A DNA stretch of 61,503 nt from Candidatus Thorarchaeota archaeon. Its GTDB lineage: Archaea > Asgardarchaeota > Thorarchaeia > Thorarchaeales > Thorarchaeaceae. The stretch's first letter is position 1; every line of letters starts with the position of its first letter. Below are positions 21,787-39,879 of the stretch, piece after piece. Under the pieces are notes generated by a model that saw only the letters and a list, made by a program, of their open reading frames with translations, made no database searches and was not told the origin of the DNA. The DNA is taken from assembly GCA_020348985.1 (NCBI GenBank), contig CP070761.1, forward strand, positions 1,459,646-1,521,148. The letters are read 5' to 3'. The translations under genes were made by a program, and so were the position numbers.

Positions 21787-23304
21787 CTATAGTCCCAGCA
21801 GTGCTGCAGCCGCTTCAAATGCGTAGTCGAGAACTGCACCGGGCAGGATGAACAGCGCGATGACTGCTACGACGCAGAAGATCACTGCTAGCAGTGGCAC
21901 ACGAGCCAGCCTTAGCTGCGAGCTGTCAATAGGCTCCACCATATAGCAGTACCTAAGCACTCTCAGATAGTAGCCGAGTGAGAAGACTGAATTTAGGAGG
22001 CCTATGAATGCGAGCCACCACATTCCCACTTCCACAGCGCTCTGAAACAGTATAAGCTTGGACCAGAATCCCGCAGTGAGTGGCATTCCAGCAAGAGCTA
22101 GCATGAGTAGTGAAAGCATCGCCGCAATGGCAGGTGCTCTCTTGGATAGCCCAGCGAGGTCATCATAGGTTATCGACTTGGCAAGCTTTAGCGACATAGC
22201 CCAGATGAGAATGAACGCACCAGTCTTCATCAGAGCGTGAGTGAACGCATGGAACATGGCGGCTGCAGCCCCTAATTGTGTGGCGGCGGCGACGCCGATG
22301 AACAGATACCCCATCATGGCAATCGAGGAGTAAGCGAACATCCTCATGATGTCACGTTGAGCTAGTGCCAGGACGTTTCCGATGATCATTGTCAGGATAG
22401 ACACGACGACAATCATCATCGACCAAACCGGCAGTCCTTCTCCAACCTTCGCTAGGATGAAGCCTACCATCAGTATTCTCACTAGAGCGCTTATGCCTGT
22501 CTTCTTCGTTGCTCCTGCAAGATATGCCACAACACTTCCGTCTGCTGTGGCGTAGGTGTCTGGTACCCACATCCAGCCTGGGAAGATACCAATCTTGAAA
22601 CCAAATGCAATTACAAACAGTATCATGGCCAATGTCAGCGGAAATGCAGCCTCACCAAGAGGAGCGACGTAGACTGTTCCAACAGTGCTTGCTAGTTGAG
22701 CAAGGGAGGTCTCTCCGGTCACTCCGTAGACAAGCGAAATACCAAAGACCATCAACATAGTCGAGAGGAGCCCCATTACGAAGTACTTGACTGCACCATC
22801 GACTGCACCCTTGTGCTTTCCAAGCGCTGCAAGCACGTAAGTTGGCGTTGACATGAGCTCCCACGCTATGAACAGTGCAACAAGGTCTGTTGCCATTACT
22901 ACCCATATTGCGCCTGCAAATGACATCAGGAGCAAGAAGTTGTATGTCCCTTCTGATCCTCCGTAAATCGTCGCCGACATGAGGACTAGGACAGCAACCA
23001 TCAGAATGATGTAGATGAAGAAGTCCGCAAAGGCACCTCTGACGAACAGACCCCCAAACGAGGTCCCATACACAGATGGATCAAATATCAACATCTCAAG
23101 TGTAGCAAGAATAACGCCAATGAAGCTCAGCCCGAGCGGATTGAACCTCAATCCCACAACCACCGCGATTAGTGAGAATACAACAAGTGTGATTGCCGGC
23201 AGGGATGCTATCCATTCCATGGGCACTACTGCAAGTATCAGGTCTCTCAAGGGTGTAAGTAGGAGTCGAAGCGAGTCGAGGATACTACTGAATAGCTGAA
23301 TCAT
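21787..23304 (-). CDS. nuoN: Complex I-like subunit NuoN
   Basis: This 505-residue polytopic antiporter-like subunit is the last gene of the minus-strand nuo operon. It has about 14 membrane helices. The helix-5 region is DLVALFIAWELMSTPTYVLAAL (charged Glu), helix 7 carries the Lys in GFKIGIFPGWMWVPDTY, and a broken helix follows (AGATKKTGISALVRIL). NuoN sits in the membrane arm next to NuoK and takes part in proton pumping. Its ATG overlaps the nuoM stop as TAATG. Length matches the family. Confidence 0.93.
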   Translation of the reverse strand: MIQLFSSILDSLRLLLTPLRDLILAVVPMEWIASLPAITLVVFSLIAVVVGLRFNPLGLSFIGVILATLEMLIFDPSVYGTSFGGLFVRGAFADFFIYIILMVAVLVLMSATIYGGSEGTYNFLLLMSFAGAIWVVMATDLVALFIAWELMSTPTYVLAALGKHKGAVDGAVKYFVMGLLSTMLMVFGISLVYGVTGETSLAQLASTVGTVYVAPLGEAAFPLTLAMILFVIAFGFKIGIFPGWMWVPDTYATADGSVVAYLAGATKKTGISALVRILMVGFILAKVGEGLPVWSMMIVVVSILTMIIGNVLALAQRDIMRMFAYSSIAMMGYLFIGVAAATQLGAAAAMFHAFTHALMKTGAFILIWAMSLKLAKSITYDDLAGLSKRAPAIAAMLSLLMLALAGMPLTAGFWSKLILFQSAVEVGMWWLAFIGLLNSVFSLGYYLRVLRYCYMVEPIDSSQLRLARVPLLAVIFCVVAVIALFILPGAVLDYAFEAAAALLGL

Positions 23305-24848
23305 TATGGAACCACCCCTAGAATGACATTGACGATTGGTTCGATGTAGTCGAGTATCAGATCAGGCCAGAAGCCCAGCAATAGAACTGGAAGCATCATC
23401 AGGATTGGAGCAATCAGGTCACTCCACGGAGCCTCAGTCACTGGCCTTTCTTCCACAGGGTCGCTGAACACGATTCTGTTCAATGTCCATAGAAGGTACC
23501 CTACTGTCAGGAAGACTCCCAGTGCGATTAGAGATGCCCAGATGTATATCCTGACAGAGCCGAACAAGACGAGTGCCTCAGCAATGAAGCCGCTGAAGCC
23601 TGGCAGTCCGAAAGCGGCAAATGACGCAAGTATCAGAACCATTGACATCCTAGGCGCCCCTGCCATGAGACCCTTGACGTCTGGAATCTCTCGAGTTCCA
23701 GCGGCGTACTTGAGCTGGCCGGCCATGATGAACATCACTGATATTATCGTTCCATGTGAGAACATCATGAAGACAGCACCCATGATAGCAAAGCTAGCAA
23801 CACCCGCAAACTCAGGACTGCCGATTGCACCTGCAGCGACTGCAACTCCTAGCAAGACCCAAGCCATGTGGTTTATCGATGTGTACGCCACCATGCTCTT
23901 GAGATCAGTCTGGGCGAGTGCCGTGAATGCTGCGTAGATGCAAGTGAAGATGGCAAGGAGTGCAAATGGAATAGCAAGCCGAGCCATAGCTGCCGGGACA
24001 AGCCAAAGACCGAGTCTTATGAACGTGTAGCCGCCCATCTTCAGCAAGATGCCTGCCAGGATGACAGAGCCGGGGGTTGGTGCCTTCACATGCGCCCACG
24101 GTAGCCAGTTGTGTAGTGGCCAGACGGGGAGTTTGACACCGGCTCCCATGAAGACTGCGAGTGCGAATCCAATCTGGACCAGTGGTGCTAGGCTCAGCCC
24201 CTTCAGAACAACCATGTTGAAGGTGTTGCCTCCTAGGAAGAACAGTGCGAAGAAACCAACGAGCATTGCTGCCGAGCCCAGGTGAGTGTAAATGAAGAAC
24301 TTGACCGCTGCGTGTTCGCAACCTTCCTCACCCCATTGTCCAATTATGAAGAACATGGGTATGAGGACAAGCTCCCAGAACACGAAGAAGCTGATCAAGT
24401 CAAAAGACAGGAAGACTCCAAGGAGTCCGGTCTCCAGTAGAAGGAATAGTGCATAGTACGATCCCTGCTCCTTGTTGATGTGGTTTGAGCTTAGAGCTGC
24501 GATGAACACAACCAGGTTCGACAGGATGGCCATGACGATCGAGAGACCATCGACACCCAACAGGATCTGCAGAACCGGGGCACTCTCTCCGACGCCAAGG
24601 CGCCCCATCTCGAAGCCCCACCCGAAAACACCACCATTGGCGTCAACCTGTGCAGCCGGATCCATGGCCAGGGCAAGGATTATGGAATACAGAAGCTCGA
24701 AACCAGTTACAAGCAACGCGATGATTCTCGCACCTCTGCCCCGCACGATGGCGGCCAAGACTGCGCCTACTAGGGGGAGCACTATCAGTAGGAATAGCGG
24801 ATTGATTCCGAGCGCATCAATGAAATTCACTGCAAAGTCAAGTTGCAC
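23304..24848 (-). CDS. nuoM: Complex I-like subunit NuoM
   Basis: This 514-residue antiporter-like proton channel subunit has canonical features: Glu in FFVFWELVLIPMFFIIGQWG, Lys in GAGVKLPVWPLHNWLPWAH, Lys in ILLKMGGYTFIRLG, and the helix-11 broken region GTIISVMFIMAGQL. The start is GTG 24848, preceded by GGGGGTGAT overlapping the nuoL stop. It is the more conventional of the two NuoM-type proteins in the operon. Confidence 0.93.
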   Translation of the reverse strand: MQLDFAVNFIDALGINPLFLLIVLPLVGAVLAAIVRGRGARIIALLVTGFELLYSIILALAMDPAAQVDANGGVFGWGFEMGRLGVGESAPVLQILLGVDGLSIVMAILSNLVVFIAALSSNHINKEQGSYYALFLLLETGLLGVFLSFDLISFFVFWELVLIPMFFIIGQWGEEGCEHAAVKFFIYTHLGSAAMLVGFFALFFLGGNTFNMVVLKGLSLAPLVQIGFALAVFMGAGVKLPVWPLHNWLPWAHVKAPTPGSVILAGILLKMGGYTFIRLGLWLVPAAMARLAIPFALLAIFTCIYAAFTALAQTDLKSMVAYTSINHMAWVLLGVAVAAGAIGSPEFAGVASFAIMGAVFMMFSHGTIISVMFIMAGQLKYAAGTREIPDVKGLMAGAPRMSMVLILASFAAFGLPGFSGFIAEALVLFGSVRIYIWASLIALGVFLTVGYLLWTLNRIVFSDPVEERPVTEAPWSDLIAPILMMLPVLLLGFWPDLILDYIEPIVNVILGVVP

Positions 24849-24849
24849 T

Positions 24850-27111
24850 TCAGATCACCCCCAAGCTGATAAGAATGACAATGGCCAGCAACCCGATCCC
24901 GAAGATGAGCATCCCGACGTAGTCATTAATCATGCCAGTCTGAGCAGTCTGGCTAGACTCAGAGGCACTAACACTCTGAGTTGAGACACCCTCAGCGAAG
25001 CCGTCAACAACGTTGTCGTCGAACCATCTAACCTTCGTGGATATCGTGATGGCAGCACTTGCTGATCTGAAGTCGATTCCATCAATGATTCTATTGTCTA
25101 TCTTGACTCTATACCATTCTGCGAACCTAAGGAACTTGCCGAGAACCCAGTAGTAGAACTCGTTGATGTACCACCGGTGCTTCAGGAAGCTGTAGAGCTT
25201 GCGCCTGGCTCCTCCCTCTGGAATGACTGTGTTTGGAGCGTCTGCCCCTCTGACATAGATGATGTATCCAGGGATTCCGCCAAGTGCCAGTGCACCAAGT
25301 GTAATCACAAACGGTACTAGGCCAGGCATGGTCAGCTTAACCTCGACCATGTGAGACAACGTGTCAATCCACGCCGCTTCAGTTTGAAGTACAATGTTCT
25401 GAATGAACGGAAAGACGATGAATGCGATGATTGTGAAAGCAGCCAGGATGTACAGTGGAATCATCATCGCCGGACCGGGGTCGTGCGGAGTCGAACCATG
25501 AGAATCCTCAGAGTGGTCGCTCTCATGTTCTTCATTGTGTACGGCTGGTTCGTGGTCGTGATCATCGTGTCCTTCGTGGGGCTTGCCGTAGAACACAATA
25601 CCCATGAGTCTGATGCTGTAGAAGATTGTACAGGCAGCAGCCATCACAGCAAAGAAGAATAACAGTGATCCCATCTGATTGAGAAACACTCCTGCTTCGC
25701 CTGCTGCAGCAAGTTCGTAGGTGTACTCAATTATCGAATCCTTCGACCAGAAACCAGAGAATGGTGGTATGCCAGCCAGAGCCAAGACGCCTATCCACAT
25801 TACAGCGAAAGTCTTGGGCATGTGTTTCTTGAGACCGCCCATCTTTGTCATGTACTTCGTATGGACTGCATGTATGACTCCTCCTGCGGATAAGAACAAG
25901 AGTGCCTTGAATGCACCATGACTCACAACGTGTAAGACGCTCGACAAGTATGCTTCTTCACCCGCATGTAACAGATGAGAATCTGCGCCAATTAGAAGAC
26001 CTCCCACACCGATTGCTAGCATCATATAGCCAAGCTGACTCAGTGTCGAGAAGGCCAGTACCTGCTTCAGCTCATTTGATGTCATTCCCATCGTGGCGGT
26101 CATGAAGGCTGTAATCGCTCCAATGACTGCAATTACCAAGAAGAAGGTCTGTGCATCAGCGAGCGAGATGACTTGCAGTGCAGAGATTCCATGGTCTCCG
26201 TTGCCGCTCTCTGCAGTGGCCTCGACCATTGTTATCAAGAAACGGGCGCTGATGTAGACTCCTGCCTTGACCATTGTCGCGGCATGAATCAGAGCCGACA
26301 CTGAGGTCGGACCTGCCATAGCTTCAGGCAGCCATACCTGCAGCGGAGCCTGTCCGGACTTTCCGATTGCGCCCATGAAGATCAGCAGGAAGGTCGGAAT
26401 GAGCATCCCAGCCCCCACCATTGCCTGCCACCAGTGCTGAGCATTGTGTGCCATGTCGGTGAACGAGAATGTCCCTGTAAACATGAACAGAATGAGTATC
26501 CCTCCCAGCATGAAAGCGTCACCGATTCTGGTAACAACGAATGCCTTAGTTCCACAATGAGTGTTGTACTGGCCCTCAGTCTCGAACTGAAGCAGCGGGT
26601 TCTTGGCCTCGTAGCCCGTGGGATCAATCTCCGGTGGGTTCCTCTTGTCGTTCCAGAAGCCGATTAGACCATAGGAACAGAAGCCCATGATTTCCCAGCC
26701 GATGAATCCGATCAACAGGTTGTCACTCAATACGAGTGTGAGCATTCCGCCTCCGAAAGCAAGCATCAGGAAGAAGAAGCGGTTCCTGTCATCCTCATGC
26801 GCCATGTACTCGGTCGAGTAGACGTAGATGAGGAAACAGAGTGTGCTCGCAAGAACAGCCATCACAACTGACAGCGGGTCGAGAAGAACGCCGAACTCTA
26901 GATTCAGTGCCTCAACCCAGACCCAGCTTGTCTGTTGGGCAGTACTGCCTATGTCTGATAGCAGCGACCAACAAAGTATCATTGCGATACCCATGAAGAT
27001 TGCAGGAGTCCAATCCCTCACCTTCTCACTGTATCTACCAACCAACGGTACTAGTAGCGAACCTCCAAGGGGGAGCACAAGGATGAGCCAATAGGGTAGT
27101 CCGAACAGCAT
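24850..27111 (-). CDS. nuoL: Complex I-like subunit NuoL, with a His-rich insert
   Basis: This 753-residue protein is the distal antiporter-like subunit; E. coli NuoL is about 613 residues. Key segments are present: GFIGWEIMGFCSYGLIGFW with Glu, GKSGQAPLQVWLPEAMAGPT with Lys, SALIHAATMVKAGVYI, and the long C-terminal lateral part ending in a final hydrophobic helix (MLIFGIGLLAIVILISLG). The extra length includes a loop at roughly 25480-25590 very rich in His, Asp and Glu (EGHDDHDHEPAVHNEEHESD). ATG 27111 has GAGGTGA five bases upstream and is preferred to GTG 27120. Confidence 0.93.
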   Translation of the reverse strand: MLFGLPYWLILVLPLGGSLLVPLVGRYSEKVRDWTPAIFMGIAMILCWSLLSDIGSTAQQTSWVWVEALNLEFGVLLDPLSVVMAVLASTLCFLIYVYSTEYMAHEDDRNRFFFLMLAFGGGMLTLVLSDNLLIGFIGWEIMGFCSYGLIGFWNDKRNPPEIDPTGYEAKNPLLQFETEGQYNTHCGTKAFVVTRIGDAFMLGGILILFMFTGTFSFTDMAHNAQHWWQAMVGAGMLIPTFLLIFMGAIGKSGQAPLQVWLPEAMAGPTSVSALIHAATMVKAGVYISARFLITMVEATAESGNGDHGISALQVISLADAQTFFLVIAVIGAITAFMTATMGMTSNELKQVLAFSTLSQLGYMMLAIGVGGLLIGADSHLLHAGEEAYLSSVLHVVSHGAFKALLFLSAGGVIHAVHTKYMTKMGGLKKHMPKTFAVMWIGVLALAGIPPFSGFWSKDSIIEYTYELAAAGEAGVFLNQMGSLLFFFAVMAAACTIFYSIRLMGIVFYGKPHEGHDDHDHEPAVHNEEHESDHSEDSHGSTPHDPGPAMMIPLYILAAFTIIAFIVFPFIQNIVLQTEAAWIDTLSHMVEVKLTMPGLVPFVITLGALALGGIPGYIIYVRGADAPNTVIPEGGARRKLYSFLKHRWYINEFYYWVLGKFLRFAEWYRVKIDNRIIDGIDFRSASAAITISTKVRWFDDNVVDGFAEGVSTQSVSASESSQTAQTGMINDYVGMLIFGIGLLAIVILISLGVI

Positions 27112-27121
27112 CTGATTCACC

Positions 27122-28657
27122 TCATGGAGTTGGAATTATGTTAGTCACTGCCTCCACTGCTGGCATGATTATGTCGACTGCCAGACCTGGGAAGATTCCG
27201 AAGATTACGATTAGTACACCCAGAATGATCTGGGGGATTGTCATAGAATTCGGACCCTCCTTCGCGTCCTCCAGGGAGTCTGGATGAGGGCCAAGGAACA
27301 CCTTCCAAAGATAACGCAGCATGTATCCTGCACTGACAATCGAGCTTGATACGGCAAGCACGGTCAGGATCAGGAATGGAAGGTCGCCTGTAGCCTGCCA
27401 TGTCTGGAATCCTCCTAGGAACATCATCCATTCGCTGGCGAAACCAGACAATGGAGGACTCCCAGCAATGCTCATTGCACCTATTGCAGCAGCAAAAGCT
27501 GTAATCGGCATCTTGTTTGAGAGACCTCCCATCAGGTTGATGTCCCTCAGGCCGGTTTGATGTATAACCGTTCCAGCCGTCATGAACAACAGGCCCTTTG
27601 AGAAGGCGTGATTGATGAGATGGAACATACCTCCTGCGGCGCCGTAGGTTGAGAAAACGCCTAGCGCAAACAGGACATAGCCCATCTGTGAAACTGATGA
27701 GTAAGCGAGAAGTCGCTTTATGTCAATCTGAGCAAGCGCCATGAAGCCACCATAGAACATGGTGATTACTCCCAGCGCGCTAATCAGGAAAGCGAGGTCT
27801 CTGGCTGCAGAGAAAAGCATGATATTGCCAAACCGCATCAAGGCGTAGGCACCGGTCTCAATCATTGCGCCTGAAAGGAGTACTGAGATTGGTGTTGGGG
27901 CTTCAGCGTGAACTGGTGGGAGCCACCAATGAATCGGGAAAACGGCCATCTTGACCAAGAAGCCTGCGGCCATCAGAATGAAGATGACTTTGATGAGTCC
28001 TGATGCTATGAGCTCCTGAATGAGAGGCCCTCCAGCAAACAGAATTGATTGAATGTCCGCGATAACGAAGCTCCCGGTGTAGAAGAACAGAAGACCGAAT
28101 CCAACCAGAATGGCTAGAGCTCCCGATTGTGTGTAGAGCCAGAACTTCATCGCCGTACGTCTCTTGGTCTCAGGCAATCCCCAGAATAGAATCAGGAAGT
28201 AGCTGGGTACAAGCATGAGCTCCCATGCGATGAAGAATTCGATGAGGTTCGTTGCCAACGTTACCCATTGCATGCCCATCAGGAAGAACAGCGTGTTGGC
28301 GAAGAACGTGGGCTTGTTGTGAGCGTGATCGGTATACCCTACCGCATAGACCACCGACAGAAATCCCAGAACAACAACAGCAAATGTGATCGGAAACGCT
28401 ATTCCGTCTAGGAAAAGACCAAACCCACCAAGAACCTCAGACCATTCTGCTTCTTCCAGGGCAACTCCACCTTCAACCATAACACGGTAGAATGGAGGCG
28501 CCATAAGCAGGGCTGCAAACCCAGAGATTCCCACTGAAATCTTTCCAGCACTGTTTCCCTCGGCAAATCGTCCTCTAAGAACATAGATGGCAAGTCCACC
28601 TAGGAATAGCACTGCCAGTGACAGGGTCATGAATGGGAACTCGAAAGTCTGCATCAT
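27122..28657 (-). CDS. nuoM: Second NuoM-type antiporter subunit of the complex I-like operon
   Basis: This 511-residue polytopic protein belongs to the NuoM/MrpD antiporter family. It contains FFIAWELMLVPSYFLILFWG with the helix-5 Glu and FLVKMAVFPIHWWLPPVHAE with the helix-7 Lys. Where canonical NuoM has a helix-8 Lys (LLKMGGY type), it reads AMIETGAYALMRFG, with Glu instead. It lies between nuoI and nuoL, giving the order I-M'-L-M-N and four antiporter-like subunits in total. ATG 28657 overlaps the nuoI stop (ATGA). It may form an extra pumping unit or replace one in a variant arm. Confidence 0.88.
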   Translation of the reverse strand: MMQTFEFPFMTLSLAVLFLGGLAIYVLRGRFAEGNSAGKISVGISGFAALLMAPPFYRVMVEGGVALEEAEWSEVLGGFGLFLDGIAFPITFAVVVLGFLSVVYAVGYTDHAHNKPTFFANTLFFLMGMQWVTLATNLIEFFIAWELMLVPSYFLILFWGLPETKRRTAMKFWLYTQSGALAILVGFGLLFFYTGSFVIADIQSILFAGGPLIQELIASGLIKVIFILMAAGFLVKMAVFPIHWWLPPVHAEAPTPISVLLSGAMIETGAYALMRFGNIMLFSAARDLAFLISALGVITMFYGGFMALAQIDIKRLLAYSSVSQMGYVLFALGVFSTYGAAGGMFHLINHAFSKGLLFMTAGTVIHQTGLRDINLMGGLSNKMPITAFAAAIGAMSIAGSPPLSGFASEWMMFLGGFQTWQATGDLPFLILTVLAVSSSIVSAGYMLRYLWKVFLGPHPDSLEDAKEGPNSMTIPQIILGVLIVIFGIFPGLAVDIIMPAVEAVTNIIPTP

Positions 28658-29085
28658 CGGAATCTTCTCCCTCGCCACTCAAGTGGGTCACGTTCAAGAG
28701 TCTCAATTTTGTCGGGGCCATAGAGGAGGTCGTCTCTTTCACCCTCGCTGAGGTCGACTATCGGTGTGTGGAATAGTGAATCGAAGCGACATGCTTCGAC
28801 ACATAGACCGCAGAAAATGCACCTTGAGTAGTCGAAGTATAGCGCTGCGTCCTTCTCGTACATCTTGTCCTCTTTGTCGATTCGAATTGCCACTACTGGA
28901 CAAGCACGTACACACTGTGAGCAAGCTGTACACTTCTCACGAATGTGGATGTGCCGACCCCTGGTTCGCTCAGGATAGTACCTGTCCTCGAAGGGGTAGA
29001 GGCTAGTGAAGGGTCTCACGAACACTTGTCTGAAGACATGTTTGAAGATTCTGAACATGTCGCCTAGTACGCTAAAGAACCCCAT
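28654..29085 (-). CDS. nuoI: Complex I-like subunit NuoI (two [4Fe-4S] clusters)
   Basis: This 143-residue protein carries clusters N6a and N6b, relaying electrons toward NuoB. Two ferredoxin motifs are complete: CTACSQCVRACP and CIFCGLCVEAC; in the second the usual proline after the last Cys is Arg. The N-terminal amphipathic helix (VLGDMFRIFKHVFRQVFV) matches membrane-facing NuoI. ATG 29085 has AGGAGGAT eight bases upstream, within the end of nuoH. The acidic C-terminal tail is of normal length. Confidence 0.95.
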   Translation of the reverse strand: MGFFSVLGDMFRIFKHVFRQVFVRPFTSLYPFEDRYYPERTRGRHIHIREKCTACSQCVRACPVVAIRIDKEDKMYEKDAALYFDYSRCIFCGLCVEACRFDSLFHTPIVDLSEGERDDLLYGPDKIETLERDPLEWRGRRFR

Positions 29086-29089: not shown

Positions 29090-30220
29090 CTATCCTCCTA
29101 TGACAAGAAGCGCCAGTCCTGGGAAGTAGGCAATCGCCAGGAGGGCAACGACGACGTTCAACACTGACAGTGGAAGTAAGTACTTCCAGCAGTAGCGCAC
29201 AATTTGATCCTGCCTGAGTCTGTAGAACGATGATGTCACTATTACAAAGAAGAAGAACACAACCAGGAACTTGATAATGAAATTGACAACTGCGGGAATG
29301 AACGGTAGTCCCCAGAAGCCTCCAAAGAATAGTGTCACCAGTAGTGCGCTGTAAAGCAACTGCTCGGCAAATTCAGCGAAGTAGGTCATTGTGAAGTAAA
29401 TGCCTGAGAACTCAGTCCTCCACCCGAAGATGATCTCCGAGTCTGCCACCGGTGCGTCGAACGGAAATGTTCCAACCGAGGCAATCGCAGCCACCAAGAA
29501 TGTGACCATGTTCACTGGCAGAAGAACCACGTACCAGATGCCTGCTTGAGCCTGTGCGATTCCCATCACACTCAACGATCCAGCTAGTAGTGCTGGGCCC
29601 ACCGATGAGATAATCATCGGAATCTCGCATGCAAACTGATTGTTTGCTGCTCTGAATCCGCCTATCAATGAGTACTTCGAACCAGAAATCCATCCCGATA
29701 GAAGCGCTATCACGGGCACTGCTGTTAGGAAGGCAAAGACAAGGACTAGGCTGACTGAAAGGTCTGCAATGAACCAAGAGCTATCCCAGGGGATGAAGGC
29801 GAAAGGCAATAGAACTATGATAAGCAAGAATGATGGTAGGAACCTGTACATCCAGCGTCTGGCTTTCTCTGGGATGATGGTCTCCTTTGAGATGAGCTTT
29901 ATAGCGTCCGCAAACAATTGGAGTCCGCCGTACTTCCCAATGTGAAAAGGCCCTCTTCGCGCTTGTATTCGTCCCCACAACTTCCGCGTAGACCATACTG
30001 CAAATATAATCCCCATCACGATGAAGATTAGCCCAGGAAATATGACCGCCTTGAACAAGAAGCCGATGTTGTAGACAACAACACTCCAGACGTAAACGAA
30101 GATTGCCCAGATGCTGCTGAGCCACCAGAAGATGGCTCGGACCCACCACGAAATGACATCGTGAAGCCAGGTCGGTATTCCAAAGAGCCAGTCGACAATT
30201 CCATCAATCCATGTCTGCAT
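29090..30220 (-). CDS. nuoH: Complex I-like subunit NuoH
   Basis: This 376-residue membrane subunit forms the quinone-access channel at the base of the membrane arm. Motifs: RIQARRGPFHIGKYGGLQLFADAIKLISKE, here given by its key parts RRGP and GLQLFADAIKL; FPFDAPVADSEIIFG, the acidic loop in which the usual PEAESE reads PVADSE; and GWRTEFSGIYF. Two or three additional hydrophobic helices precede the conserved core. GGAGGTGA at the nuoD stop is ideally spaced for ATG 30220; ATG 30226 is possible. The frame reaches 30403, but that would overlap nuoD heavily. Confidence 0.93.
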   Translation of the reverse strand: MQTWIDGIVDWLFGIPTWLHDVISWWVRAIFWWLSSIWAIFVYVWSVVVYNIGFLFKAVIFPGLIFIVMGIIFAVWSTRKLWGRIQARRGPFHIGKYGGLQLFADAIKLISKETIIPEKARRWMYRFLPSFLLIIVLLPFAFIPWDSSWFIADLSVSLVLVFAFLTAVPVIALLSGWISGSKYSLIGGFRAANNQFACEIPMIISSVGPALLAGSLSVMGIAQAQAGIWYVVLLPVNMVTFLVAAIASVGTFPFDAPVADSEIIFGWRTEFSGIYFTMTYFAEFAEQLLYSALLVTLFFGGFWGLPFIPAVVNFIIKFLVVFFFFVIVTSSFYRLRQDQIVRYCWKYLLPLSVLNVVVALLAIAYFPGLALLVIGG

Positions 30221-30234
30221 TGTCATGTCACCTC

Positions 30235-31371
30235 CTAGCGATCCCACCATCCCGGATACGGGTCCAAGCTGCCGAATATTACGATGAAGTCCGCGAACTT
30301 CGAGCTGGGAACGAGATGTTTCAGAGAGTAGTATGAGGAGAAGCAAGGGCCCCGTATCTTGGCCCGCCAAGGAGTCTGCGCCTTGTCCTGTGTCTTCAGC
30401 CATAGTGTGGTAACTCCTCTTGTACCTTCTACTCGGCCGTAGGCTTCTCCTTCTGGAAGTCTGTTGGCCTTGGCTCTGTGCTTCGGGTCGATGATTGGGC
30501 CATCTGGAACCTGAGGCAAGAGCTGCTTGATAATGCCCAATGAGGTCTCGACTTCGAGAAACCTCTGAACCATTCTGTCATACGCGTCGCTTTCCCCAGG
30601 GTGGTCTTCATTGTGAACAGTCGGAACTTCCCAATCACACATATCATATGCAAGACTGGGATCTGGATCATCTTTGCGCAGGTCCATGGGGACACCACAA
30701 GCTTTGATGTTTGGACCTGAGAGACCCCACTTGAGACCCTGCTCTGCTGTAAACTGACCGATGCCCTGTGTTCTAACCCTGAATGTTGGCCCCCTTAGTA
30801 GCATATCTTTGAACTTGGGTAGACGATCCTCGATACGGTCCATTGCTCTCTCGAGCTTCGCGATAACACCTTCATTGAAGTCATACTTGACGCCGCCTGG
30901 GGTGTTGTAAGATACTGCATGACGAGAACCTGAAAGCTCTTCAAAAGCGTCAAGGAAGAATTCTCTATCAACCCATGGCCACAAGAGCATTGTGAAGAGA
31001 CCTAGCTCTGCGGCAAACTGACCCCACCAGAACTGCAAGCTGTGAATCCTACTTGCTTCCATCATTATTGTGCGCATGACCTTGGCACGCTCAGGAACTT
31101 CGAGTCCGGCAATCTTCTCAACTGCAGTCACGTACGGATATTCTGCCAAGAATGCCTCTAGCATGCAGAGCCGCTCCATTATGAGCGCGCCCTGTCTGAA
31201 GTTTCTGAACTCCATGACCTTCTCCGCAGACCTGTGGAAGTAGCCTGCGTTGGGATCACATTCCACGATGTAGTCGCCGACCAGAGTCAGTTTCGTCGCC
31301 CATCCGTGAGCGGAAACGTGCTGTGGACCGAACCAGATCTCGATTGCATCATCAACAATGTCGGTTTTCAT
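30235..31371 (-). CDS. nuoD: Complex I-like subunit NuoD (49 kDa type), with unusual active-site residues
   Basis: This 378-residue protein is homologous to NuoD and the large subunit of NiFe hydrogenases. The N-terminal strand GPQHVSAHG keeps the quinone-site His (His22), and AVEKIAGLEVPERAK is classical. Aligned without gaps between GYFHRSAEK and AVEK, the conserved quinone-site Tyr (Tyr87 in Thermus Nqo4, in an RMDYL context) falls on Met70 in ERLCMLE. The first hydrogenase CX2C aligns with Cys69 and Glu72, and the last CX2C with Tyr and Trp in SLDPYPGWWDR. So no NiFe centre is expected. Its ATG overlaps the nuoC stop. Confidence 0.92.
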   Translation of the reverse strand: MKTDIVDDAIEIWFGPQHVSAHGWATKLTLVGDYIVECDPNAGYFHRSAEKVMEFRNFRQGALIMERLCMLEAFLAEYPYVTAVEKIAGLEVPERAKVMRTIMMEASRIHSLQFWWGQFAAELGLFTMLLWPWVDREFFLDAFEELSGSRHAVSYNTPGGVKYDFNEGVIAKLERAMDRIEDRLPKFKDMLLRGPTFRVRTQGIGQFTAEQGLKWGLSGPNIKACGVPMDLRKDDPDPSLAYDMCDWEVPTVHNEDHPGESDAYDRMVQRFLEVETSLGIIKQLLPQVPDGPIIDPKHRAKANRLPEGEAYGRVEGTRGVTTLWLKTQDKAQTPWRAKIRGPCFSSYYSLKHLVPSSKFADFIVIFGSLDPYPGWWDR

Positions 31372-31937
31372 TCTGGCGACTCTCCTCCTTCCTTGGGCGT
31401 CGTCGATGGCGTAGGCCGCGCAGGCCTCTCTGCCGCTGGGGGTTTTGGTTTCGGTTGTGGGAGACCGGACTCCTCAAGTCGACTTCTATCGGTCTGGAAA
31501 CTCTTCCTTAGAGGATATTTGCCTTCGAGCTCTTCGGGCAGCAGCAGCAGTCTCAAGTCTGGATGTCCGCTGAACCCGATTCCAAACATCTCATGAGTCT
31601 CACGTTCGTGCCACTCGAATCCCGGATAGATGTCTGATACCGATTCTACTTCGGGTGCTTCACCTTCTATTGGAACTCTTAGCTGACATAGAAGCTTGTT
31701 CGAATGCGACCAGAATATGTAGATCAACTCGTACTGGTCATTCTCAAGATCAACAGCAAACATTGACTCGGGAAGAAAGTCGGAGACTGACTCATCAAGC
31801 AATGCGACGATGGCCCGTATCTTGTCGGCAGGCATGACAAGCTCGATTCTGTTTCCCTCTAGTGGATTGGCTTGAACCTCTGGGAACTTGTTCACAATAT
31901 CGCGCCCCAGAGTAGATGCCGAACCAGATGATTTCAT
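31368..31937 (-). CDS. nuoC: Complex I-like subunit NuoC (30 kDa type)
   Basis: This 189-residue peripheral-arm subunit packs against NuoD. The family signature is intact: DIYPGFEWHERETHEMFGIGF, visible as YPGFEWHERETHEMFG, followed by HPDLRLLLLPEELEGKYPLRK. The C-terminal 35 residues are Pro-rich (PKPKPPAAERPARPTPS) and are not part of the core. ATG 31937 lies four bases after the nuoK stop; a longer frame to 31982 would overlap nuoK. It lies after nuoK, an unusual position since nuoC normally follows nuoB. Confidence 0.92.
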   Translation of the reverse strand: MKSSGSASTLGRDIVNKFPEVQANPLEGNRIELVMPADKIRAIVALLDESVSDFLPESMFAVDLENDQYELIYIFWSHSNKLLCQLRVPIEGEAPEVESVSDIYPGFEWHERETHEMFGIGFSGHPDLRLLLLPEELEGKYPLRKSFQTDRSRLEESGLPQPKPKPPAAERPARPTPSTTPKEGGESPE

Positions 31938-31941
31938 GTGC

Positions 31942-32262
31942 TCACTCACTCTGCATCTCCTCCTGGATACCGGGGCGTCCAAGATCGACAGTGCCGTATC
32001 TGCTATTGTACATGAGCATCAAAACCATCGCGAGAGCTGTGTGAGCTGCCGCGACTGAAATCACTAGAATCACGAGAGCCTGCCCTGTAAACGTGAAAGT
32101 CTCCATGTAGAGGGAGAGGGCGACAAGCGCGACCGTTACACCATTGGCCATGATCTCTGCGCCAATTAGGACTCGAATCAGGTTACGTTTGACAGCCATG
32201 CCATATGCGCCGAGACCAATCATCATGAAGGAGAATGTTAGATACCAAGACAGGGGGATCAT
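31942..32262 (-). CDS. nuoK: Complex I-like subunit NuoK, missing one conserved Glu
   Basis: This 106-residue, three-helix subunit is related to MrpC. The first membrane Glu is present at position 36 (VLIGAEIMANGV). The second, which in E. coli is Glu72 in a LAAAEAS context, aligns with His74 in VISVAAAHTALAM. Both glutamates normally contribute to the central proton path. ATG 32262 overlaps the nuoJ stop (ATGA). Length and hydrophobicity are otherwise standard. Confidence 0.92.
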   Translation of the reverse strand: MIPLSWYLTFSFMMIGLGAYGMAVKRNLIRVLIGAEIMANGVTVALVALSLYMETFTFTGQALVILVISVAAAHTALAMVLMLMYNSRYGTVDLGRPGIQEEMQSE

Positions 32263-32930
32263 TCTGCCACCTCCTCCTGCTCATCTTCAGGTTCCTCTGG
32301 ACCATCTACCACCGGTGTTTCGTCCCCACCATCATTCGAGGAACCGATTCCATAGTCCTTGCTCTCTGGGTTCATCCGCTCCGCTTTCTCCATCTTCAGA
32401 ACGGCTATCGCTCCGACTAGCGCTGTAACCATAACAAGAGCAATCATCTGGACGTATATCCCGTGTTCACCCCAAAGCCACACTGCGAGTTGCTCTAGAC
32501 TTTGAGCAAGGTCCACTCGCTGTTGAGGAATACCGGTGTCCCAACCTGCTGGGGCAGGCCATTCATATAGAAGGGCCAGAGCGGCTGCAAATACAACTGC
32601 GAAGATTGAGACAAGAAGTCCCACCCTCCGTTTTGATGGCCCCTCAAATGCCTCCAAGGTCGTATCTTGCGCTCGTGGTAGCAATAGAACGCCGAATATG
32701 ATGAGAACGCTAATACCTCCCGTGTAGACCGCGATTTGCATACCGGCGATAAAGGGAGCTTCCAACAACAAGAAGAAGCCAGCTACAAGGGATGCCATGA
32801 TTCCAAAGGAGAACACTGCATAAACGATGTCCCTGTGTTCCAAAGCCAGATAGGCCAGGAAGAGGACTATGGCGGCAATCGCAATGAACTCAACTGGTTC
32901 GAGAAGATCTACTAGTTCGTTCCCTTGCAT
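32259..32930 (-). CDS. nuoJ: Complex I-like subunit NuoJ
   Basis: This 223-residue membrane subunit has five predicted helices. The helix-3 signature with the pi-bulge region is seen in GMQIAVYTGGISVLIIFGVLLL; the short form AVYTGGISVLIIFG is diagnostic. The acidic, Gly/Glu-rich C-terminal tail (about 40 residues, GGDETPVVDGPEEPEDEQEE) is unusual and resembles tails on the 33927-34541 product and NuoC. ATG 32930 follows the nuoA stop by one base; the frame continues to 33011 inside nuoA and is not used. Confidence 0.92.
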   Translation of the reverse strand: MQGNELVDLLEPVEFIAIAAIVLFLAYLALEHRDIVYAVFSFGIMASLVAGFFLLLEAPFIAGMQIAVYTGGISVLIIFGVLLLPRAQDTTLEAFEGPSKRRVGLLVSIFAVVFAAALALLYEWPAPAGWDTGIPQQRVDLAQSLEQLAVWLWGEHGIYVQMIALVMVTALVGAIAVLKMEKAERMNPESKDYGIGSSNDGGDETPVVDGPEEPEDEQEEVAE

Positions 32931-32931
32931 C

Positions 32932-33375
32932 TCAGTGACCTCCAGAATGTCCTGTGCTATGGGCACGGGCTTCCTTTCGCTCCTGGTAGAGTTCAAGGGT
33001 CTCCTTGCCATCCAATGTTGTTTGAGGCAGTGTCCTCATCACGAAGTTGATTCCAAGCATGATAATGACGACGAAAATCAGAGTCTGCCAGACAACAGGG
33101 ATGTCGAGCCTGAGTGACGATGACGCAAGCAGCCATAGGAATGCGCCCATGACGTCGACGACAACGAAGAGTATCGTGTAAATGAAGTAGTTGTACGGGT
33201 AGGCAATTCGAGCGGGACCGATAGGCTCCTCACCACATTCATACGAACTCAGTTTCTCACTGTTCTGCAAAACATGGGGGCGCAATACCCATGATGCAAG
33301 CAACATCACAACAACGAGGACAACACCAAGTAACGCCCAGATCAAGACTGGGATAAAGTCCATGAATAGTCTCAT
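32932..33375 (-). CDS. nuoA: Complex I-like subunit NuoA, missing one conserved Glu
   Basis: This 147-residue, three-helix subunit is the first gene of the long minus-strand operon. The loop signature SSYECGEEPIGPARIAY is present. In the next helix the usual FDVE motif reads VDVM: Asp74 is kept but the Glu (Glu81 in E. coli NuoA) is Met76. ATG 33375 is preferred, with ATG 33363 possible. The C-terminus is charged and His-containing (ARAHSTGHSGGH). The promoter and a hairpin-forming repeat lie directly upstream (33413-33476). Confidence 0.92.
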   Translation of the reverse strand: MRLFMDFIPVLIWALLGVVLVVVMLLASWVLRPHVLQNSEKLSSYECGEEPIGPARIAYPYNYFIYTILFVVVDVMGAFLWLLASSSLRLDIPVVWQTLIFVVIIMLGINFVMRTLPQTTLDGKETLELYQERKEARAHSTGHSGGH

Positions 33376-33412
33376 CTTCGGGAACCGTCCCAATGTTTTG
33401 CCAATGGTTGAG

Positions 33413-33554: not shown

Positions 33555-33914
33555 GTGATTATATTGGGATATAGAGAAGAGGGTTCATTCTTCTACTATC
33601 TTGCCCTCCTGATCGGCATGACTCTTGTAGGGGCATACTTCTGGTACATCTTGGACACCCCACTCACGAATACAGTATCTCATTTGATGTTGTTCTTGTC
33701 AGGAGTCCTTCTTGTCGTTTCGACGATGGGCCTTGGATACGCCAATACACGCTCTGGTCGAATAGGATTGACTGCCATGTCCGGCATTTTTGCCGGGGTC
33801 CATGGCTACCTTGACATAACCGTCTTCCCACTCCTTACAGGAATCATACTCTTTGCTTGGATTGCATTTGGCCTAATGTTGGCTTTTGCCGCCTTTGCCT
33901 GGCTAAAAGAGTAA
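33555..33914 (+). CDS. Small four-helix membrane protein between the nuo transcription units
   Basis: This 119-residue protein is almost entirely hydrophobic, with four predicted helices (about 14-31, 38-57, 68-90 and 93-116). I recognise no family. It starts at GTG 33555 (TTG 33564 possible) and is read against both neighbouring nuo units, converging on the 33927-34541 gene with a 12 bp gap. Location suggests a connection with the complex I-like enzyme, but its opposite strand means separate control. Confidence 0.5.
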   Translation: MIILGYREEGSFFYYLALLIGMTLVGAYFWYILDTPLTNTVSHLMLFLSGVLLVVSTMGLGYANTRSGRIGLTAMSGIFAGVHGYLDITVFPLLTGIILFAWIAFGLMLAFAAFAWLKE

Positions 33915-33926: not shown

Positions 33927-34541
33927 TCAGTCGCCTGAGGAAGGTTCCTCTTCTTCCTTAGGCTCTTCTTTCGTTTCTGGCATATCGACTTCTTCAGGCT
34001 CAATCTTCGACGGCTCACCCTGAACAGTTGCTGGTTCTTCTGGAGTACCCTCTTCTGAGACTTCCTCTTCGCCCTCTTCGGGTTCCTCTGGCTCTTCTGG
34101 CTCAGGGATGTACTTGGCCTGAATCGCCGCCACATCCATAATCCCTGGTGTGACTCTTTCCTCAGGGGAATGCTGGAGTGCAAAGCCACCAGCAAGAAGT
34201 AACGGAGCACCGACTCCCCAAGTCGCAAGGAACACTCCTCCACCAACTTGGAACGAGATCATGACGTAGATCAGAGCAGCGAAAACACTCAATCCCAGAG
34301 CCGGAGCCTTTCTCCTGCCCCGAGCTGGTCTTAGATAGCCCAAGAAGAAGAACGCCATGACTAATGGCAGAAGCAGAATAAGGGAAGTACCAGCAAAGGC
34401 CCCTGCTTCGGCGAGAATAGCGTTCACGTACGCTGGGTCCGTTATTGGCAGGTATAGCATGAAATGGAAGTAGTAGGCAGCGAGGAGCATGAAGCCTAGC
34501 CATGGCACGCAATACTGGTCTGTGTCTTCACGAAGAGTCAT
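33927..34541 (-). CDS. Unrecognised membrane protein with acidic tail, co-transcribed with the GlcD-NuoB fusion
   Basis: This 204-residue protein has four predicted helices (about 11-31, 39-64, 77-95 and 98-117) and a 70-residue low-complexity tail of Glu and Pro (PEPEEPEEPEEGEEEVSEEG). The tail is like those of NuoJ and the zinc-ribbon membrane protein. ATG 34541 has GGAGGAAA upstream, placed just after the fusion gene stop at 34553, so co-translation is likely. No known Nuo accessory subunit matches. I infer it anchors or accompanies the fusion protein at the membrane. Confidence 0.6.
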   Translation of the reverse strand: MTLREDTDQYCVPWLGFMLLAAYYFHFMLYLPITDPAYVNAILAEAGAFAGTSLILLLPLVMAFFFLGYLRPARGRRKAPALGLSVFAALIYVMISFQVGGGVFLATWGVGAPLLLAGGFALQHSPEERVTPGIMDVAAIQAKYIPEPEEPEEPEEGEEEVSEEGTPEEPATVQGEPSKIEPEEVDMPETKEEPKEEEEPSSGD

Positions 34542-34552: not shown

Positions 34553-36547
34553 CTACTGCATCATCCCCATGGCATCCTGGTTCTCGTACTTCATCTGCCA
34601 ATGTGTCGTGCCTGCACGAATCTTGTTCTGCAAGATGATATGTGCCCGCACAAAGTCAACTGGCTTGGGCGGACAACCGGGCAGGTAGACGTCAACCGGT
34701 ACAACCTTGTCAGGCGGCGTCATGAGCGAGTAGCCGTCCCAGAAGAGACCCCCACTTGCAGCACACTGACCGAACGACATGACGTACTTCGGCTCGGGCA
34801 TCTGCTCGTAGATTCGTCGAAGCCTTGGCGCCATCTTCTTCGTAAGAGATCCTGAGATCCACAGTACGTCGCATTGCCGAGGTCCGAATAGAGGCAGCAT
34901 TCCGAATCGCTCAATATCCCATCTTGACGCCACTGCGGCCGCACCGTCAACCATGCAACAGCCAAGTCCGTACTGGACCGGCCATGGGCTGTGAGCTCTC
35001 CCCCATCTAAGCATCCACTTCAGTGGCGGGACATTCTGCAGCCACTTGAGCAATATCGGTGCAATGCGGCCGAATCCGTTCCTGAAGAAGTCATAGAATA
35101 TCCAGAGGAAGTACTTGCCGATTCTGAGAATGAATGGAAGCCAATAGGCAAACACCTTGCCTGGGTTCGAGATTTCCTTCGGGTCCCACTTCAGCTTGGC
35201 GGCGCGGATCTTCGCAAGCCGTCGCTTACCAAAGTAGGTCGATGCGTAGTTGGCGAACCATATTCCCGTAGAGTGAGGATGTCCACCGTGACGCTGTGCA
35301 ATCTTGAAGATGACGAAGCTCTGTGCCCAGCTGAACATGAAGAAACGTCGACGCTCGTCTTCGAGGAAGTATCCCATCATCGTAACGCCGTTCTTGGACG
35401 TGACATAGCCATCGATTCCAGCGCGAGCTGAAGCCTGCTCAAACTGGAAATCACTTAGGATTGGTTCAAGGTTTTCAAGCGGAGCAAACGCCTGTCCTAC
35501 AACCAAAGTTGGGCCGCCTTTCTTAACACGCATAGGATAGTAGCGGTCATGCCATTCGTGTTCGGCTACATGCTTGTCATATACAACACCTTGGAACTCC
35601 TCTGCCACGTGCCGAACTAGGGCGTGGCCCTCTTCGACTTCTTCATCAGTTCCGTCATAGGCAACCAAGACCATCCCGTGATGAACAGGGAATGGGAACT
35701 TCTCTTCACTTTCCCAGTTTGCCTTCTTGAGGTCAGTGTACTTGCTCTCTTCGAACTTGATTGTATGAGGCGTCGGTCCTTCCTCAACGATCTTCTCAAT
35801 GGCGAAGACCATCAAGTAGTTCTCGGGAAAACTAGCCACAATCGGTTTTATCGGCGTCAACGGCTTAATCTTGAGTTTGACTTTGGTTATAATCCCAAGA
35901 ATCCCCTCGGTGTCGCACCAGAGGTCAGTATCCTTGCTTCTGATGATTCTACCTTTTGGCAGTACAGCCTCGACTTCAATCACGTTGTCGTTGATTGTGC
36001 CATACTTGAGTGAGCCGATACCGTCTCCGCCTTGTGAAACCCATCCGCCGACCGTGGCAGATAATCCAGATGATGGATAGGCTCTCAGATCCAAGTCGTG
36101 TCGGTTCAACTCGAACTGAAGATTGGCCCAAGAGATGCCAGGCTCAACAGTAACGGTCAGATTTTCTTTGTCGATTTCAACAACAGAGTCCATCCTGCGC
36201 ATGTCAACAACAATGCCGCCCTTTCTCGGAATTGCACCGCCATAACCCGAGGTCCCTGCGCCTCTTGGCACAAGCGGGATTTTGTGTTTGTTTGCGAATT
36301 CGTAGAGGGTCTTGATCTCCTGAGGGGTCTCTGGCTGAACGATAGCATCGGGGTTCGGGTTCATCAGCCACCCGACTTGCTTGGGCAACGACCCGACATC
36401 CATCCCTTGAATAACGAGTTCATGCTTCTCAGTGAGAAGCCGGTCACCGAAGGTCTCGGCGAGTTTAGAGGCAAGTTTCTTTTTCAGCGTCACGCAGGGA
36501 CTCTCCATACTGTCTGCTGATGGTCGGGGGGTGGATTCCTCCGACAT
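34553..36547 (-). CDS. GlcD-NuoB fusion: FAD-linked oxidoreductase joined to the complex I N2 subunit
   Basis: This 664-residue protein joins two modules normally in different enzymes. Residues about 60-240 are an FAD-binding PCMH-type domain with the pyrophosphate loop PRGAGTSGYGG (94-104), and 240-475 a GlcD-type C-terminal domain (EHEWHDRYYPMRVKK, EISNPGKVF). Residues 475-513 form a hydrophobic, aromatic linker. Residues 514-650 are a full NuoB with the four N2 ligands Cys530, Cys531, Cys595 and Cys625 (GLGCCMVDG, MSFGQCAASGG, VYLPGCPPKPV) and RWDIERFG. No separate nuoB exists in the window. ATG 36547 has little leader. I infer electrons pass from the flavin module into the N2 cluster. Confidence 0.93.
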   Translation of the reverse strand: MSEESTPRPSADSMESPCVTLKKKLASKLAETFGDRLLTEKHELVIQGMDVGSLPKQVGWLMNPNPDAIVQPETPQEIKTLYEFANKHKIPLVPRGAGTSGYGGAIPRKGGIVVDMRRMDSVVEIDKENLTVTVEPGISWANLQFELNRHDLDLRAYPSSGLSATVGGWVSQGGDGIGSLKYGTINDNVIEVEAVLPKGRIIRSKDTDLWCDTEGILGIITKVKLKIKPLTPIKPIVASFPENYLMVFAIEKIVEEGPTPHTIKFEESKYTDLKKANWESEEKFPFPVHHGMVLVAYDGTDEEVEEGHALVRHVAEEFQGVVYDKHVAEHEWHDRYYPMRVKKGGPTLVVGQAFAPLENLEPILSDFQFEQASARAGIDGYVTSKNGVTMMGYFLEDERRRFFMFSWAQSFVIFKIAQRHGGHPHSTGIWFANYASTYFGKRRLAKIRAAKLKWDPKEISNPGKVFAYWLPFILRIGKYFLWIFYDFFRNGFGRIAPILLKWLQNVPPLKWMLRWGRAHSPWPVQYGLGCCMVDGAAAVASRWDIERFGMLPLFGPRQCDVLWISGSLTKKMAPRLRRIYEQMPEPKYVMSFGQCAASGGLFWDGYSLMTPPDKVVPVDVYLPGCPPKPVDFVRAHIILQNKIRAGTTHWQMKYENQDAMGMMQ

Positions 36548-36685: not shown

Positions 36686-37912
36686 ATGAAGTTCCCTCTG
36701 CTTGAACAGTACGGTCTCCAGGACCAGCCTTTTACTTGTGCCCAATGCAGCTTCTGTCAAGTAGGAAATGGTGCATGCCCGACATACAAGGTCAAGCGTC
36801 GTGACAGTTATTCTGGAAAGGGCAAGATGATTTTGGCTAGGACACTCATCCAAGGCAGAATCAAACCCTCTGAAGGGCTCGAGGGTTTGAGAGATGCAAT
36901 CTTTGGGTGCACTCTTTGCGGAGGCTGTGAGGAAATCTGTCAGGTCGACATTCCTTTCGTCAAGATCTATCAGCTTCTTCGAGCAGACTTCCTCAGGAGA
37001 GGAATGTGGCCGGAAGAGCTTGTTCCAATGAAAGAGACCCTTGTCGATGACTTCAACGTTCAGGGTCAGGATAATGATGATAGAGTTGAAGGATGGTCAT
37101 ATTGGCATCCAGATGAAGATGCGCTTCTTGAGAAGGTTGGACAGAACGCGAAGACTGCCTTCTTCTTTGGGTGCAACTCATCATTTAGAGGAGTACCCAT
37201 CCAAGGAACAATTGCGACACTCCTAATAATGGACAAGATTGGCGAGGACTACACAGTTCTCGGAGATGAAGAGTGGTGTTGTGGTGCCCCGTTGATAATG
37301 ACAGGTGACTTCGATTCGGCGCGCAAGTTCGCTGAGCACAACATCAAGCAATACAAGGAGCTTGGTGTACAACGGATAGTAACCAATTGTCCTGGTTGTT
37401 ACAAGATGTGGGCACATGAGTATCATGAATTCCTAGACATTGACCATCCATTCGAGGTTGTCTATGGTGCTCAGTATTTCTCACGCCTCATTGATGAAGG
37501 AAAGCTCGCTGAATTCACCAACCCTCTTGATGTGACTGTTACATTCCACGATGGTTGTGACGCGGGTCGAAACTCAGGCATCTATGAGGAACCACGGAAA
37601 GTCCTCGAGCATCTGCCAGGTGTTACACTCGAAGAGCTACCTCACAACAAAGCCAACTGCTATTGTTGTGGATCCGGTGGAGTACTAAGGCCAGTTGACG
37701 CCGACTTTGCGCTGGAGATTAACAAGCTCAAAGTCGAAGACATCGAGCAGACAAGCGCAGACTGGGTTATTGCCGCTTGTCCATCGTGTGTTGACTTCAT
37801 GAATGATCAACTGCCCCAGACGGGGTCTCAGAAACGAGTAAAGGACCTCTCAGTGCTCGTTGCTGAAGCTTTGGGCCTAACGTGGGATGGGCTTGACGAG
37901 ATCTACGGCTAA
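36686..37912 (+). CDS. GlcF/HdrD-type iron-sulfur protein with two CCG domains (pair A)
   Basis: This 408-residue electron-transfer protein has two N-terminal [4Fe-4S] motifs (CAQCSFCQVGNGACP and CTLCGGCEEICQ). It also has two cysteine-rich CCG domains: FFFGCNSS ... WCCGAPLI ... NCPGCYKMW and FHDGCDAGR ... CYCCGSGG ... ACPSCVDF. Such proteins accompany GlcD-type flavoproteins in glycolate and D-lactate oxidases and resemble heterodisulfide reductase HdrD. It diverges from the GlcD-NuoB gene, and all other glcD genes here are adjacent to a glcF, so it is the natural partner of the fusion. It probably sits on the cytoplasmic side. Confidence 0.9.
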   Translation: MKFPLLEQYGLQDQPFTCAQCSFCQVGNGACPTYKVKRRDSYSGKGKMILARTLIQGRIKPSEGLEGLRDAIFGCTLCGGCEEICQVDIPFVKIYQLLRADFLRRGMWPEELVPMKETLVDDFNVQGQDNDDRVEGWSYWHPDEDALLEKVGQNAKTAFFFGCNSSFRGVPIQGTIATLLIMDKIGEDYTVLGDEEWCCGAPLIMTGDFDSARKFAEHNIKQYKELGVQRIVTNCPGCYKMWAHEYHEFLDIDHPFEVVYGAQYFSRLIDEGKLAEFTNPLDVTVTFHDGCDAGRNSGIYEEPRKVLEHLPGVTLEELPHNKANCYCCGSGGVLRPVDADFALEINKLKVEDIEQTSADWVIAACPSCVDFMNDQLPQTGSQKRVKDLSVLVAEALGLTWDGLDEIYG

Positions 37913-39829: not shown

Positions 39830-39870
39830 CTGAAAACATTCGATAGCAGAATCTTGGAATTTCGGAAAGA

Positions 39871-39879
39871 GTTTAAAAG
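39871..39879 (+). promoter_or_regulatory. TATA-like box for the cytochrome gene at 39935
   Basis: GTTTAAAAG lies inside the region that a longer reading frame from 39854 would translate. It is a better promoter than coding sequence and supports ATG 39935 as the start. Confidence 0.4.

Follow-up and report, generated by a model that had tools for sequence, protein, structure and literature searches.

The window analysed here, a stretch of 61,503 nucleotides from the genome of a Candidatus Thorarchaeota archaeon, carries a gene in which a flavoprotein of the GlcD type is continued, in the same reading frame, by NuoB, the complex I subunit that is predicted to carry N2, the last iron-sulfur cluster of the pump. 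It is accompanied on one side by a run of genes for complex I subunits, in the order NuoA, J, K, C, D, H, I, M, L, M', N, and on the other by a gene for an iron-sulfur protein that we call GlcF1 (Table 1).

Table 1. Features of the fusion locus; positions refer to the window unless another locus is named, and residues to the 664-codon protein where they concern the fusion.
Feature	Position	Strand	Remarks
NuoN-like	21787..23304	-	TIGR01770 284.7, below cut-off 332.6; PF00361
NuoM, second copy (M')	23304..24848	-	TIGR01972 405.1, cut-off 263.8
NuoL	24850..27120	-	TIGR01974 454.8, cut-off 407.5
NuoM, first copy	27122..28678	-	TIGR01972 292.5, cut-off 263.8
NuoI	28654..29085	-	two [4Fe-4S] motifs
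NuoH	29090..30403	-	PRK06076 279 bits, below cut-off 305
NuoD	30235..31371	-	GPQH-loop His kept; Met70 at Tyr87 position
NuoC	31368..31982	-	PF00329 100.4 bits
NuoK	31942..32262	-	PF00420 62.1 bits
NuoJ	32259..33011	-	PF00499 79.6 bits
NuoA	32932..33393	-	PF00507 69.7 bits
Small membrane protein between fusion unit and nuoA	33555..33914	+	conserved in most of the fusion loci that were fetched; no Pfam family
Small membrane protein with acidic tail	33927..34541	-	directly after the fusion; no Pfam family
GlcD-NuoB fusion gene	34553..36547	-	664 codons from ATG; 646 from GTG at codon 19
NuoB module	34556..35017	-	residues 511-664; N2 ligands C530, C531, C595, C625
Flavoprotein module (GlcD/D-lactate dehydrogenase fold)	35018..36493	-	residues 19-510; FAD motif PRGAGTSGYGG at 94-104
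Basic amphipathic linker helices	35018..35143	-	residues 469-510, end of flavoprotein module
GlcF1, GlcF/HdrD-like Fe-S protein	36686..37912	+	Fer4_8 and two CCG; 138 bp from fusion, divergent
FrhB-like protein	L049 10101-11171 (own genome, ~10 kb past the window)		two 4Fe-4S motifs; sole PF04432 match in the genome

The preliminary description of this DNA had reported an uninterrupted frame of 664 codons, with the FAD motif and the four N2 cysteines at the residues given in Table 1. Indeed, the frame, which lies on the minus strand and runs from 36547 to 34553, is free of internal stops, the plus strand being stop-broken there, and both the motif and the cysteines are found at the positions claimed. 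Most database relatives have 646 amino acids, the length expected for a start at the GTG of codon 19. Pfam searches identify FAD_binding_4 at residues 66-203, FAD-oxidase_C at 237-465 and Oxidored_q6 at 531-635. The NuoB half exceeds the NCBIfam cut-offs for NuoB (178.3 vs 116 bits for PRK06411; 170.1 vs 142.7 for TIGR01957) and matches a solved NuoB-type chain with an E value of 5.5e-42, and all four N2 ligands, including the CC pair, are cysteines in 46 of 46 fused clusters. The right edge of the flavoprotein module was set at the C-terminal ends of two unfused relatives, P0100 and P0101. The linker helices that close this module were taken from the predicted structure and are also found in unfused relatives; per 18-residue window, residues 469-510 have a hydrophobic moment of 0.27-0.67 and a net charge of +1 to +3, and hydropathy predicts no membrane helix there. 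A single AlphaFold run gave a mean pLDDT of 83.2 and a pTM of 0.74, with a good flavoprotein half and a poor NuoB half, and the structural neighbours listed for this model cover residues 16-469 only.

An artefact of assembly or frame, which would reduce the fusion to two ordinary genes, has a negligible probability and was rejected, the same joint being present in clusters from many independent assemblies. The fusion was found in 24 fetched loci, 15 of them distinct in sequence, and the complete unfused GlcDs P0100 and P0101 are sister to the fused clade; the possibility of an assembly error, raised in the preliminary description, was thus checked directly against related genomes. In-frame stops are reported for some of the surveyed genomes, and both cases that were checked (G192 and G204) have them upstream of the start. 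Nine comparisons with the window gave a pN/pS of 0.135-0.214 for the flavoprotein half and of 0.058-0.128 for the NuoB half, values to be read with synonymous sites that are mostly saturated; on sequence grounds, the flavoprotein half is under purifying constraint.

The two-domain architecture was sought in protein databases with the NuoB part, only proteins of similar total length being admitted. Among the 99 proteins returned, 46 clusters, the window's own included, contain both FAD_binding_4 and Oxidored_q6, and where the source name gives the organism the fused proteins are called Thorarchaeota, with the exception of one called Hodarchaeota; many are unnamed. A species-level genome collection, in a search that reaches close relatives only, provided 11 loci for the fusion gene, all bearing the name Thorarchaeota. 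Furthermore, we surveyed a phylum sample of 227 genomes, 47 from the family of the window and 180 from other families. The fusion is present in 31 of the 47, nearly complete in 29 and cut on one side in two (G189 and G202), and a fragment of it occurs in one more member of the family (G199). It was detected in none of the 180, where the matches, among those listed, cover one half only. Since it is found in 31 of 47 family genomes as against 0 of 180 others, the fusion is old, stable and, within this genome sample, confined to one family.

The origin of the joint can be followed in unfused relatives. P0100 (from genome G216) and P0101 are complete GlcDs, 57 and 58% identical to the flavoprotein of the window, which carry a basic amphipathic tail of the same type and terminate a few residues past the motif PPLKW; where they end, the fused proteins continue into NuoB. 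The unfused NuoB of a neighbouring family (G001, 59% identity), in turn, starts slightly before the place that matches the joint. In a tree built on 39 of 121 collected rows, the pair P0100/P0101 is sister to the fused clade, with support values of 100/100 for the two together and 99/97 for the fused clade. The latter includes two truncated rows, P0103 and P0104, which break off within the flavoprotein and which their source labels as partial. They were therefore not counted as splits, and a later splitting of the fusion was rejected, though the tree needed three label changes. In two paralogous GlcDs of the window, hydropathy predicts C-terminal membrane helices at the position of the joint, and none in the fusion, so that complex I seems, from this comparison, to serve as the anchor instead.

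The genome is a single contig of 3.157 Mb, estimated to be 86% complete. As the preliminary description had observed, nuoE, nuoF and nuoG are missing from the nuo operon: NuoE and NuoG are absent from the gene run, and NuoF (PF01512) has no match in the whole of this 86% complete genome. Its further claim that the window contains no other nuoB can be extended to the genome, in which PF01058 has two matches besides the fusion. Both are read as small subunits of [NiFe]-hydrogenases because hydrogenase large-subunit-like frames lie alongside them, and a second NuoB was rejected. FpoF as electron donor was not supported by score, the only PF04432 protein of the genome scoring 130 against the FpoF cut-off of 475; this protein also falls below the cut-off for FrhB (201 vs 269 bits) and is encoded away from the nuo genes. 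All 24 of the fetched fusion loci have a match to the membrane protein with the acidic tail, at 28.9-43.5% identity when the window itself is set aside, and this protein is a possible accessory subunit. A Ras-family small GTPase is encoded beside the end of the nuo run (21127-21735). A separate, complex-I-related [NiFe] hydrogenase with CGIC-type motifs occurs in members of the family, as seen in loci L052 (G185), L053 (G215) and L051 (G216), even in genomes devoid of the fusion.

GlcF1 has a Fer4_8 domain at residues 17-89, with two [4Fe-4S] sites, and CCG motifs that start at residues 163 and 291; the first [4Fe-4S] motif shows a wider spacing ahead of its last cysteine, and no membrane helix is predicted in the protein. 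Of the 15 distinct fusion loci, 12 have the gene no more than 400 bp from the fusion, two have it farther away, at 4.6 and 9.5 kb, and in the last it is on another contig. Co-occurrence was counted in the 47 family genomes with GlcF1 accepted at an identity of at least 64% and GlcD accepted as fused, fragment or unfused: both are present in 32, GlcD alone in one (G202), GlcF1 alone in one (G182), and the remaining 13, among them several incomplete genomes, have neither (Fisher p 1.4e-9, with the relatedness of the genomes ignored). In G216, the unfused GlcD and GlcF1 are encoded side by side in the same orientation, with a UbiA-family gene next to them, and the sole NuoD-family match belongs to a hydrogenase with CxxC motifs; hence, GlcD and GlcF1 were likely paired before the link to NuoB arose. 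Including the fused one, there are five GlcD-type modules in the window, and next to every one of them is a GlcF/HdrD-type gene that encodes CCG domains. The four further adjacent pairs lie between 41079 and 55899, and their GlcDs are devoid of the HxGDGNxH metal motif.

By structural comparison, the flavoprotein has the fold of D-lactate dehydrogenase, with 22-24% identity to LDHD and LctD, and it scores below the NCBIfam cut-off for GlcD (TIGR00387, 144 vs 567.9 bits). It shares fold and FAD motif with the D-2-hydroxyacid dehydrogenases of the VAO/PCMH group (mouse LDHD, LctD, GlcD), from which it differs in being joined to NuoB and in its metal site: the ligands H398, H405 and E442 of mouse LDHD are kept in none of the 44 fused rows, where all three are replaced, and in none of the 76 scorable unfused ones. 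The residues of the FAD site are conserved (e.g., P94, R95, G101, Y102 and G104), and the catalytic-base histidine, H443 in LDHD, corresponds to H425, present in all 44 fused rows. R335, in a WxxR motif, is also found in 44 of 44 and is a possible equivalent of LDHD R347 in a region where the alignment is gapped; a carboxylate-binding arginine is thus probably retained. With the metal ligands lost and the base histidine and the probable arginine kept, we assign no substrate to the flavoprotein. The earlier designation 'organic acid-type' therefore agrees with the fold but not with the metal site.

The acceptor side is equally unusual. In Thermus, Tyr87 of Nqo4 binds quinone and is a putative proton donor, according to an excerpt of PMC7434922. 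NuoD was compared with the best 120 of 380 matches, among which two close rows are gapped at this position and hence not scorable. In these 120, none of the 59 scorable close rows (73-100% identity) has tyrosine, nor does any of the 5 rows at 49-50% identity, as against 54 of 54 others. Residues 69-70 are Cys-Met in the window and in all 59 close rows, the distant relatives have Asp/Glu-Tyr at this place and the five rows at 49-50% have Ser followed by Met or Leu, while the loop histidine (His38) is kept in 59 of 59, all within the same best 120 of 380. The close rows were taken as NuoD matches, whether or not their genomes carry the fusion, and a few of them are named Lokiarchaeota, Hermodarchaeota or Sifarchaeia. 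As the rows at 49-50% also lack the tyrosine, its loss may predate the fusion. NuoD has no nickel-binding CxxC motifs, RLCMLEA and SLDPYPG replacing the CGIC and CxxC that the hydrogenase rows L038, L052 and L053 both have. Its best solved match is chain 6u8y_L (E 8.4e-58) of the MBX/MBS of Pyrococcus, which is likewise without the tyrosine. The function of this Pyrococcus system is sulfane sulfur reduction. The fused NuoB differs in being a complex-I-type protein with the CC pair, and its scores against chains of complex I exceed that against chain 6u8y_J. Due to the absence of Tyr87, quinone is uncertain as acceptor. The cysteines of the N2 cluster are all in place, and the lost tyrosine is the strongest finding against the earlier idea that this cluster reduces the quinone.

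The window also contains, in one stretch (55901-61153), genes for a MenA-like prenyltransferase, a polyprenyl synthase and CcmA/B/C/E-like proteins of haem attachment. The prenyltransferase is of the MenA type by score (106.8 vs a cut-off of 102.15), and CcmA, CcmC and CcmE score below their NCBIfam cut-offs. Judging by gene content, this resembles a respiratory island that uses a quinone-type carrier and haem of the c type; for the futalosine route to menaquinone, no PF02621 match was found.

How these parts work together can be read in different ways. The explanation that we prefer, with chances that we regard as evenly balanced, is a complex-I-like pump in which the NADH module has been replaced by a tethered flavin/Fe-S dehydrogenase composed of the flavoprotein and GlcF1; with a flavin module fused to NuoB, the pump would likely be fed by an organic fuel and not by NADH. 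In this scheme, the FAD would be reduced by a carboxylate-type substrate and would pass its electrons along the CCG and [4Fe-4S] sites of GlcF1 to both clusters of NuoI; N2 in the fused NuoB would then hand them to an acceptor bound in the cavity of NuoD, and ion pumping would be the task of the membrane arm, made up of L, M, M' and N. Through the fusion, the dehydrogenase would be anchored to the membrane edge of the pump, which would substitute for the C-terminal membrane helices seen in two paralogous GlcDs of the window. The preliminary description had proposed that electrons enter directly from the flavin dehydrogenase. The conserved fusion and the absence of NuoF favour such a donor, but 'directly' is at odds with the co-occurring GlcF1. 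Because this CCG partner adjoins the fusion and co-occurs with it, and given the precedent of EtfD, where, from an excerpt of PMC13083937, electrons of a flavoprotein reach menaquinone through CCG domains and two [4Fe-4S] clusters, the order FAD → GlcF1 → NuoI → N2 would be likelier than a single step from FAD to N2. The acceptor is probably a quinone-like carrier, and this is the weakest step of the explanation because the NuoD tyrosine is lost. Other findings that argue against the tethered dehydrogenase are the missing metal site of the characterised relatives, the intact NuoI, at which ferredoxin could supply electrons, and the divergent position of GlcF1 outside the nuo run, together with the two genomes, G182 and G202, that break the pairing.

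Energetics bear on the direction of the reaction. The potential of lactate/pyruvate is about -190 mV and that of menaquinone about -75 mV, so that a lactate-like donor would leave little energy to drive a pump that has an additional NuoM; these values suggest a donor lower than lactate, an acceptor higher than menaquinone or a reversed direction. In the last case, an ion gradient and/or low-potential electrons would reduce an acceptor, e.g., a 2-oxoacid or another carboxylate, at the GlcD flavin. The small energy gap, the loss of Tyr87 from NuoD and the two NuoM, the extra one being speculated to raise the protons per turnover in a passage of PMC8004040, are all in line with such a reverse enzyme, but the MenA-type prenyltransferase and the cytochrome-c-maturation-like genes of the window suggest oxidative electron transport, and we consider it improbable. 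Somewhat better placed, and still on the unlikely side, is a core fed through NuoI by ferredoxin, or by reduced F420, with the fused flavoprotein as a side entrance or docking unit. NuoI carries the two [4Fe-4S] motifs that this would use, and ferredoxin input is a published hypothesis for the complex I of Sifarchaeia and Jordarchaeia, as given in part of PMC9723677; it leaves the joint retention of fusion, GlcF1 and core unexplained. For the F420 variant there is one FrhB-like protein close to the window, which misses, as seen above, the cut-offs for both FpoF and FrhB and is not encoded with the nuo genes. The slimmest chance, among readings that accept the gene as real, goes to a flavoprotein half that is a structural or regulatory appendage with no redox role in the complex: the known catalytic site has lost its metal ligands, but the FAD-site residues, H425 and R335 are conserved and the partner GlcF1 is retained. 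In a bolder form, which we put forward tentatively and with more doubt than confidence, the tethered dehydrogenase would be a complex I whose NADH module has been exchanged for a fuel enzyme welded to the N2 subunit, i.e., an FAD dehydrogenase, a CCG wire and a two-NuoM pump, and whose remodelled cavity without Tyr87 may not reduce ordinary quinone at all.

Comparison with known systems places the locus among the complexes I without NuoEFG (11-subunit or Fpo-type), with which it shares the core A, B, C, D, H, I, J, K, L, M and N and the lack of NuoF; here, however, NuoB has an N-terminal flavoprotein and NuoD is devoid of Tyr87. It departs from the 14-subunit NADH dehydrogenase in that NuoF has no match in the genome, and from the F420H2 dehydrogenase (Fpo) in that the input subunit FpoF was not found there. 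A second NuoM is common to its nuo run and to the 12-gene 2M cluster of Chloroflexus aggregans, described in an excerpt of PMC8004040. The plan of a flavoprotein with a [4Fe-4S]/CCG protein is shared with GlcD/GlcF pairs and with EtfD/HdrD-like proteins; GlcF1 differs in having no predicted membrane helix, and the membrane part would here be complex I. NuoB takes part in fusions elsewhere too, namely NuoBC and NuoBCD of archaea and bacteria (from part of PMC11237513), and several proteins of our own database search are of this kind, but these join core subunits together, whereas a flavin donor module was seen only in the 46 among the 99 proteins returned.

The preliminary description knew of no enzyme with this architecture, and our search of openly licensed PMC literature found no description of it; the available text of PMC6737245 makes no mention of complex I, NADH or nuo. 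The sequences themselves are publicly available, and most of those that bear a name are annotated as NuoB or hypothetical protein. The electron donor of the 11-subunit complex I is called an open question in a passage of PMC11238625, and a candidate donor fused to the N2 subunit names the donor side for one archaeal family in the form of a single testable polypeptide. Furthermore, intact N2 ligands without the quinone tyrosine of NuoD separate two features that usually occur together, and the fused enzyme could reveal what the acceptor cavity does without Tyr87. If the bolder form of the explanation is true, the enzyme would be the first complex I to have a non-nucleotide donor built in covalently, and Asgard archaea would show how a bare pump can be connected to a new fuel.

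Some minor observations concern related proteins. In another Asgard family, a frame of locus L032 (1679-4225, genome G006), open over 1070 residues, includes both GlcD and GlcF-like matches and represents a GlcD-GlcF fusion. In the window, two membrane proteins, at 39854-41155 and 48407-49018, contain a haem-c-like CNQCH and an odd CASSGCH motif, respectively, and relatives of the latter lie near or adjoining the fusion, upstream of it, in loci L008, L011 and L012, with three copies in L011.
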